A stretch of DNA of 35,268 nucleotides from Bacteroidota bacterium (GTDB taxonomy: Bacteria > Bacteroidota > Rhodothermia > Rhodothermales > UBA10348), in the NCBI GenBank assembly GCA_022571255.1, contig JACZYD010000019.1, positions 1 to 35,268 on the forward strand, in the 5' to 3' direction. A program made the translations under genes and the position numbers. This document shows positions 33,259 to 35,268 of the stretch, in pieces; position 1 is the stretch's first letter, and each line of letters begins with the position of its first letter. Below the pieces are notes generated by a model. That model did not search any database. It was not told the origin of the DNA and saw only the letters and a list, made by a program, of their open reading frames with translations.

Positions 33259-34635
33259 CTAATTAGTATTGAATTGCTTGATATGATCTTCTACTGCGTT
33301 GGTAAAGGCGATGGCCGACTCGCTGTATATATCTACACGGTACTTGACAAAGACCTCTGTTTTCAGAATTTTCGCTGCTTTATCCCATCCATTGCTGCGA
33401 GAAAGTAATTCAATTACGGATTCATACGCATCGGTATTGCCGCTGAACAAGTCACTGATAAAACGACTTCGCAAATTTCTGGCTTCTCCAAGTACCCGTG
33501 CCTCTAATCCTTCAACCAGAGTGGGGTTCTCCGGCACGGAGGGTTCATTCTGCGGCACGGAGGGTTCATTCTGCGGTGCGGAGGGTTCATTCTGCGGTGC
33601 GGAGGGTTCATTCTGCGGTGCGGAGGGTTCACTTTCCGGTGTTGCATACGTTTTCCACAATGGCCGGCTGTCGGATGGATCAGCGGTAATGGTCGTGGCA
33701 GTCACGTGAGCAGCTTCTTCAGTGTATTGTTTCCAGAGAGGCAAATCTGGACCCGCTTCACTGGCAGAATTCACCTCTTGTGATTTGTCGACCGGGACGG
33801 ACGGAGGCGGAGGTCGAAATGCATCCTGAAGAAGCCGAACCAATGTCTCGATATGTATCATTTCACCCTCAACGGCTTCGCACCGGCGAAGAGAGTCAGC
33901 CAGTTCAAGAAGACCTCGCTCTTCGATAAATCGCACCGGTAAATCGAGAGGAAATTGCCCCGGCAATCCCGCGCCAAAAGAATAGAGCTTGCAAAGAGGC
34001 TTCAGCGTATCCATCCAGTCACCGGCTGAAAAACAGGATCCTGCTGAACGGTCACAGGCTGTGAGTCGCTCGCGAAGGACCACTCGACTGATTTCGGAGG
34101 TGGCACTGCCCATGCGGTCTGCTGAGGCATCGGCGACCACGTCATTCACCTCGGTTATAAGGTGAGGATAGACTGTGAAATAGACCAGGCGCCGCTCGAT
34201 GTCTGCGGCTCTCGACATGTCGGCATCTCGAATAAATAAAAAGTCGATGAGTGTATCAACCGGGAAATACAGATAATCGACAACGAATTCAACGGCCCTT
34301 CCAAAATACAATTCAACGTCATCGGCGGGAAATTGCCCCAGATCACTCAACACTTCTTTCAGACCTGTATATGCGTCGCCATAAAGCTTTGAGGTCGAAT
34401 CGATCCAGTCGGATTTCGGGGAGTGAATGTGCTTCAGTTCCTGTCTCACCCGACGAGAAAGAGCCTGATAGAGGAAGTGCCTGAGTGCCGGAGGTATATC
34501 AGCCTTTGAGAGGTCGTCTGCCGATACGGGTTGCCCAGATGGAAATTGATTCAGAATTCTGGTGAGGATCTGTTTTTTCAAAGCCACTGTGTATTCGATG
34601 TTCGGATTCTCCGGGGCGTATTTTAATTTATTCAA
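33259..34635 (-). CDS. Unrecognised 458-residue protein with heptapeptide repeats
   Basis: A soluble, mostly helical protein of unknown function. The first 250 residues are rich in aromatic and acidic helices ([38 protein letters not shown]). Then come a proline-rich stretch, two copies of a short motif LWKxY (PLWKQYTEE and PLWKTYATP), five copies of a heptapeptide of the form EPSAPQN, and a C-terminal helical domain (about 365-455, [20 protein letters not shown]). No signal peptide or membrane segment is seen. The start is TTG 34635; a GTG at 34587 is also possible. Eight bases separate it from pccB, so the two are coupled, but that does not reveal the job. I could not assign a family. Confidence 0.8.
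33533..33637 (-). repeat. Five 21-bp tandem repeats encoding EPSxPQN
   Basis: Five contiguous 21-base units (33533, 33554, 33575, 33596, 33617) differ by a few bases and stay in frame, coding for seven-residue EPSAPQN or EPSVPQN units; the leftmost copy, last in the protein, reads EPSVPEN. The array is a flexible spacer of a length that may vary between strains. Confidence 0.92.
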
Positions 34636-34840
34636 GCTGCATACGCGGAACGGGGCAGGCAGGTTTTGATCGTTGCCGAATAATCCATGTCTGCGTTCGA
34701 ATCAATTCAAAATGCAACTATCCGAAGGCGACCCGTATCGGCGGTCTGCAAGACCTGTCATGTTCGCCGCGAAGTTCATCGAAGAAGTACTTTTTAAGTG
34801 GATTTATTATTGTGGTGAGATTTAAGGGACTGTTCTCTTC

Positions 34841-34902
34841 GTCGATATCACGGACAGGTGACACGCTGCGTCTCAGCCGTCACCTTGTGGTTTGTCCTCG
34901 AC
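34841..34902 (+). ncRNA. Candidate structured RNA leader or small RNA
   Basis: Nested complementary segments form one long interrupted hairpin on the plus strand: GTCGA (34841-34845) with TCGAC (34898-34902), GGACA (34852-34856) with TGTCC (34893-34897), GGTGAC (34857-34862) with GTCACC (34879-34884), and GCTG (34865-34868) with CAGC (34874-34877) around a 5-base loop, with bulges TATCAC and TTGTGGTT. An intrinsic terminator begins seven bases later. No known riboswitch class is recognised. It could be a transcription-attenuating leader of the gene at 35008 or an independent small RNA. Confidence 0.45.
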
Positions 34903-34908
34903 CAGGAG

Positions 34909-34932
34909 CCCGGCCCCGTAAGGCCGGGTTTT
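34909..34932 (+). terminator. Intrinsic terminator in the leader region
   Basis: CCCGGCC (34909-34915) pairs with GGCCGGG (34922-34928) around a six-base loop, followed by TTTT (34929-34932) and further T-rich sequence on the plus strand. No plus-strand coding gene lies upstream for over 10 kb, so it must act on a short transcript starting nearby. Confidence 0.7.
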
Positions 34933-34952
34933 CCTGTTTAATACGGGTTTCA

Positions 34953-35012
34953 ATTGCCGTAATGCCGATGAGATTGCCATAATGCCGATGAGATTGCCAC
35001 AATGCCGATGAG
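34953..35012 (+). repeat. Three 20-bp direct repeats, each with an ATG
   Basis: Three contiguous 20-base copies (34953-34972, 34973-34992, 34993-35012) differ only at one or two bases. Each contains ATGAG, so ATG codons occur at 34968, 34988 and 35008. The first two open tiny frames that stop after 4 and 7 codons; the third opens the partial gene. Confidence 0.92.
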
Positions 35013-35268
35013 ATTTTCCCTTCACACTGTGCAGATTCTGTTTGTCATGTCTCTGCTGGGCCTCGTCCGCCCGGAGAAAAGTCAAGCCCAGGAATATCTC
35101 GCAGAATCGCTGGATCTCTTTCTGGATTTTCGTTTATCTCCGGCAATCAACTTCTCCAGACTCGGCCTCATGTCTGAGAGCGGAATTACAACCCCTCACA
35201 GTTGCAGGTCTAATCGTGGCGTCGGTGGGACACCCGGCCGCTCGCACATGGAACCGACCTGGTGGCTG
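35008..35268 (+). CDS. N-terminal part of an exported protein, cut by the window edge
   Basis: From ATG 35008 the frame stays open to the window end (87 codons). It begins with a good signal peptide (MRFSLHTVQILFVMSLLGLV, then a cleavage-like SQAQ). After about residue 50 the composition turns unlike a typical mature protein (HSCRSNRGVGGTPGRSHM), while another frame from about 35170 reads a hydrophobic LTVAGLIVASVG. So there may be a frameshift or sequence error near there. Family cannot be stated. Its ATG sits in the third of three direct repeats, downstream of a possible attenuator. Confidence 0.5.
   Translation, partial: MRFSLHTVQILFVMSLLGLVRPEKSQAQEYLAESLDLFLDFRLSPAINFSRLGLMSESGITTPHSCRSNRGVGGTPGRSHMEPTWWL

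Follow-up and report, generated by a model that had tools for sequence, protein, structure and literature searches.

A candidate sigma-28-type leader RNA, conserved upstream of a predicted outer-membrane protein gene in uncultured Rhodothermales

Small RNAs that depend on sigma-28 have been described in two settings. In E. coli, MotR is a sigma-28-dependent small RNA of about 95 nt that lies in the 5' UTR of motA, with readthrough into the downstream gene (PMC10578931). In Campylobacter, CjNC1 and CjNC4 are likewise transcribed by sigma-28; they were reported to be Hfq-independent in an E. coli reporter test, and the paper deals with flagellar 5' UTR targets of sigma-54 genes (PMC4626219). There is also precedent for alternative sigma factors at pilus genes, namely cyanobacterial SigF (PMC7690835) and WhiG of Rubrobacter, which controls type IV pili from GCCGATAA-type promoters, a non-flagellar use of a FliA/WhiG sigma; the available text of the latter paper gives the FliA/WhiG consensus as TAAA (-35) and GCCGATAA (-10) and contains no mention of a small RNA that we could find (PMC8325347). 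Within the literature searched, small RNAs of Rhodothermales appear undescribed apart from one incidental co-mention, and "Rhodothermota" together with "noncoding RNA" returned none.

The window, i.e. the whole stretch of DNA analysed, is an entire contig of 35,268 bases (G000:C27) from a 3.29-Mb draft genome. The locus considered here is made up of the following features.

33259-34635, - strand: gene A, a conserved divergent neighbour outside the RNA (homologous divergent ORFs in L003, L004 and L007)
34821-34827, + strand: predicted -35 box TTTAAGG of a sigma-28 (FliA/WhiG)-type promoter, conserved among aligned relatives
34822-34847, + strand: match to the exact promoter pattern TTAAG-N14-GYCGATA
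34841-34848, + strand: predicted -10 box GTCGATAT (relatives GCCGATAA, as in the published -10), GYCGAT in nearly all aligned loci
34856-34885, + strand: 5' hairpin AGGTGAC..GCTG..CAGC.GTCACCT, folding in 18/18 loci (z -2.1 to -5.3)
34886-34897, + strand: near-invariant linker TGTGGTTTGTCC (relatives AAGGCGGTTTGTCC) by alignment, unpaired in the consensus model
34903-34936 (core 34905-34932), + strand: intrinsic terminator hairpin with T-rich tail (terminator scan, fold, two-sided changes in 10 of 14 pairs)
34953-35015, + strand: tandem repeat of a 20-bp unit (3.2 copies) in the interval from terminator to gene B, repeating the ATGCCGATGAG start region
35002-35128, + strand: 5' end of gene B as judged from orthologues; it encodes a signal peptide and the start (..SLDLFLD) of a conserved protein predicted to be an outer-membrane barrel

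Like MotR, the element combines a sigma-28-type promoter that, judging from its boxes, the enrichment of the motif and the presence of a sigma homologue, would be shared with the downstream gene, a predicted 5' UTR RNA and a strong 3' stem-loop terminator, and the short distance from this terminator to gene B leads us to infer readthrough. The likeness is one of layout, and it has limits: the phylum and the downstream gene differ, flagellin was found only in genus g10, which has no strong element match at gene B, and an Hfq search of the 27 genomes of the family gave no match (the control detected Hfq in E. coli and B. subtilis), so that any pairing of the RNA with an mRNA would be Hfq-free. 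With CjNC1 and CjNC4 the element shares predicted transcription by sigma-28 as a small RNA, but it is the leader of a protein gene. Terminator-based leader attenuators likewise have, in the interval from promoter to gene, a hairpin and then an intrinsic terminator; unlike them, the element has no conserved alternative fold.

Structure of the element and its relatives

The initial annotation of this DNA had described a long imperfect hairpin of nested complementary segments, closely followed by an intrinsic terminator, with no coding gene upstream. The segments and the terminator are indeed where it placed them. The + strand between 34830 and 34940 folds at -48.1 kcal/mol, compared with -32.6 +/- 3.4 in dinucleotide shuffles (z = -4.6; matched by 1 of 200 shuffles), and a terminator scan agrees, the hairpin at 34905-34932 (11 pairs, 7 of them G-C) being the strongest + strand site in the region; the structure is thus real. 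The - strand folds equally well, as is expected of inverted repeats, and the T-rich tail 3' of the terminator stem lies on the + strand. The absence of a + strand gene immediately upstream also holds, gene A diverging on the - strand. Absent from that annotation was a + strand ORF downstream, which starts at 35002 and runs off the contig end; since a gene on the same strand follows, the element is in a 5' leader position.

The extended stem fared less well. What relatives keep is confined to the inner hairpin (34856-34885), linker and terminator, whereas the outer pairings GTCGA/TCGAC and ATCAC/GTGGT are not conserved; moreover, the 5' strand of the outer segments overlaps the predicted -10 box and is therefore probably not transcribed. 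The proposal that ATCAC and GTGGT offer a switch-like alternative fold is not supported, as all five pairs form in the window only (one to four of five across 17 relatives) and the 5' half lies within or adjoining the -10 box.

A DNA search showed that further genera of this Rhodothermales family have homologues of the linker-terminator part, between the same genes A and B, in public records named as Rhodothermales or Bacteroidetes MAGs. When the DNA upstream of gene B orthologues was read, a conserved block was present in every locus carrying GTTTGTCC. The 18 aligned loci were chosen by this motif, which in part accounts for its being invariant in the alignment; a whole-genome covariance-model search that did not require it returned the same 18 genomes. 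That search took in 114 genomes of the order and found a single strong copy (55-109 bits), always at gene B, in each of 18 genomes out of the 27 that make up the family. The carriers belong to six of the ten genera of the family (g1, g2, g3, g6, g7 and g9), and the genome of the window holds no second copy. Most of these genomes are draft MAGs, and the copies missing from G001, G005, G017 and G026 may reflect assembly gaps. In g4, g8 and g10 gene B is present with no strong element match upstream, so that gene B does not need the element there. Weaker model hits in other families of the order (26-43 bits) were mostly terminators alone and were set aside; an exact 19-mer in records of Acetivibrio, Lachnospiraceae, Eubacterium and Chromatiales was taken as chance.

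In relatives the order is TTTAAGG, about 14-15 nt, G(C/T)CGAT(A), 7-8 nt, hairpin, linker, a few nt, a strong terminator and gene B, and the promoter consensus over copies is TTAAG-N14/15-GYCGATA. The base of the 5' hairpin falls at the predicted transcription start, 7-8 nt past the -10 box, and from there to the terminator the predicted RNA would measure about 80-95 nt. The hairpin arms of the window differ on both sides from the GAGAC/GTCTC of relatives. The linker reads GGYGGTTTGTCC in relatives and TGTGGTTTGTCC in the window and L003; as RNA it is GGYGGUUUGUCC (window version UGUGGUUUGUCC), with GGUUUGUCC as the stretch that would pair with partners.

Covariation was the evidence by which the structure was to be judged, and among relatives both conservation and compensatory changes were found. 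In a plain alignment 12 pairs had changed on both sides with pairing kept, ten of them among the 14 pairs of the terminator and two in the 5' hairpin; none of 500 shuffles scored as high, and slid controls reached at most 7. A model-fitted alignment, which leans towards structure and includes one spurious partial opposite-strand hit, gives 17 such pairs, and the 5' hairpin accounts for seven of these. When representatives of g3, g6 and g9 are aligned, identity is 90% over hairpin and linker and 45% over the terminator, compared with 26% in upstream DNA, the chance level for an ungapped comparison. Taken together, identity and covariation indicate that the terminator is kept as structure and the hairpin-linker part as sequence.

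The window has no match to the Rfam 15 covariance models at gathering thresholds and no tRNA match, and at relaxed E-values the window and L016 gave sub-threshold matches only, none of them credible. With homologues that covary, a conserved promoter and no Rfam family, the earlier suggestion of an attenuated leader or a small RNA of about 100 nt belonging to no known class stands, and the element appears, on comparative sequence grounds, to be a conserved and previously unnamed RNA, about 80-95 bases long, that belongs to one uncultured Rhodothermales family.

A different arrangement was seen at about position 1501 of L107 (G041) and L109 (G051), on the element strand, in f2, another family of the order: a sigma-28-like promoter, a hairpin CCGCTCAA..GCGG that differs from that of the element, and a terminator. 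There the downstream conserved gene is convergent, i.e. this is a free-standing candidate RNA gene, possibly a distant relative of the element or an analogue.

The predicted promoter and its regulon

Both promoter boxes resemble the FliA/WhiG consensus as given in PMC8325347. All 27 genomes of the family have a FliA/WhiG-family sigma match, 15 of them above the curated cut-off, including that of the window (202 bits, G000:C122:18840-19496, L047). The exact promoter pattern occurs at 188 sites in the 27 genomes and its reversal at 29 (both summed from the table of sites). Four sites fall in the genome of the window: the element, a T2SSE-type (PilT/PilB-like) ATPase gene, a gene for a Big_1-domain protein whose signal resembles that of a lipoprotein, and a gene for a small protein. 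In relatives the pattern precedes small-protein homologues in g2, g3, g6 and g9 and, in g4, g6, g7, g8 and g9, genes beginning MGQQQLLLLV..., which we call pilin-like from their sequence (the single one scanned had no convincing Pfam family). Several flagellin genes of g10, the only flagellin-bearing genus among the 27 genomes, have similar boxes upstream. Apparently, in the genomes that keep a FliA/WhiG-family sigma and have no flagellin, a flagellar-type sigma has been reused for surface structures.

The motif was also seen before LysM-like genes. A small conserved protein (83-98 aa, M(R/Y)IDEH.LAGY..G.L...DR; no Pfam family for the one scanned) is found behind a sigma-28-type promoter in several genera (L054, L058, L064, L076, L081 and L082), and is possibly a feedback regulator, e.g. 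an anti-sigma factor.

Gene B and its neighbourhood

Gene B is split by the contig end. Its remainder is on contig C26 (L027), the end of which equals window positions 35110-35128 (19 nt). Window positions 35129-35268 diverge from C26 and have no second copy in the genome; the cause is a chimeric assembly at the contig end or else an insertion or strain variant in gene B. The protein has no match in Pfam or among PDB sequences. A low-confidence structure model (mean pLDDT 52) has 12 long strands after an alpha/beta domain at the N-terminus, and its best PDB structure matches, weak as fold matches, are outer-membrane barrels; strand pattern and fold matches thus suggest a beta-barrel-like protein. 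Gene A matches neither Pfam nor NCBIfam, and contains a 21-bp tandem repeat of about five copies (33524-33631) that encodes repeated NEPS(A/V)PQ.

In relatives the start codon of gene B lies some 10 to 60 nt past the U-tract, as close as about 10-20 nt, and in the window about 65 nt past it because of the 20-bp tandem repeat, whose changes in copy number could alter spacing or start choice for gene B. The spacing in relatives can hardly accommodate a separate promoter, save one overlapping the terminator, and gene B is therefore most likely to be expressed by readthrough of the terminator.

Action in trans, control in cis and other explanations

On balance we think that the element is a MotR-like, small-RNA-bearing leader in a sigma-28-type regulon, with readthrough into gene B and a short RNA that acts in trans. 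RNA polymerase with the FliA/WhiG-family sigma would initiate near 34856 and copy the 5' hairpin and then the single-stranded linker; most polymerases would halt at the terminator, releasing the short RNA, and a fraction would pass into gene B. The short RNA would probably act through its unpaired linker, by base pairing or by binding a protein, and its targets may be surface-structure or pilus genes of the same regulon. Three observations lead us to prefer action in trans: the leader is nearly invariant while the sequence of the terminator is free, there is no co-evolved antiterminator, and most carriers have no NusG paralogue. An exact 12-nt search for the linker or its complement elsewhere in the genomes stayed at chance level and showed no conserved second site; one pair of orthologous extra sites (L145/L154) is confined to two genomes. 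Should the candidates in L107 and L109 prove homologous to the element, the trans-acting reading would gain.

The main rival, which we consider possible though rather improbable, is a purely cis-acting attenuator, in which a protein or other factor binds the nascent linker or 5' hairpin and sets readthrough into gene B, the short RNA being a by-product. The fixed position before gene B fits such a role equally well: in every carrier the terminator stands between promoter and gene B, little or no room is left for a separate gene B promoter, and only a few nt separate the near-invariant linker from the terminator stem. What speaks against it is that no mutually exclusive antiterminator exists, since pairing of the leader with the 5' arm of the terminator is as stable for native as for swapped combinations (-13.07 and -12.95 kcal/mol), that ATCAC/GTGGT varies as described above, and that NusG paralogues are rare among carriers. 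The two roles could also coexist. A classical terminator-antiterminator attenuator was rejected on the same arm swaps and for want of a conserved exclusive fold. Antitermination of the ops type by RfaH or another NusG paralogue, prompted by the GGCGGT of the linker, was rejected as well, because the genome of the window and most carriers have a single NusG (second copies occur in g3 and g8 only), and so was a leader peptide, because no conserved start codon precedes the conserved segment (ATG, TTG, CCG or GCG stands before TCTC in the alignment).

One may also consider that only the DNA matters, as a promoter with a transcription-factor operator, the hairpins being incidental inverted repeats and no functional RNA being made. 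In its favour are the conserved promoter and the fact that an inverted repeat also forms a palindrome in DNA. Conservation peaks, however, downstream of the predicted start; the linker forms no palindrome, G-U pairs persist in the stems, as suits an RNA, and the terminator has drifted in sequence while keeping its pairing. We regard this explanation as very improbable. Less credible still is a metabolite riboswitch of a new class controlling gene B: a structured, conserved leader that ends in a terminator before an outer-membrane protein gene and has no Rfam match would fit, but an aptamer would be expected to be larger than one short hairpin with a 12-nt linker, no alternative pairing is conserved, and the genes under riboswitches are usually metabolic or transport genes.

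A more specific statement, which we offer tentatively and would not yet call probable, is that this is a new RNA family, a sigma-28-dependent, Hfq-independent leader small RNA that couples production of an outer-membrane beta-barrel protein to a regulon for pili or surface motility, under a flagellar-type sigma, in bacteria without flagella. The element is a clear and testable RNA family, and it suggests that a lineage most of whose members lack flagella has redeployed a flagellar-type sigma at pilus-like surface genes. If the proposed reading is true, the presence of a MotR-like layout in an unrelated phylum without Hfq would suggest that small-RNA leaders with readthrough terminators recur in sigma-28 regulons.
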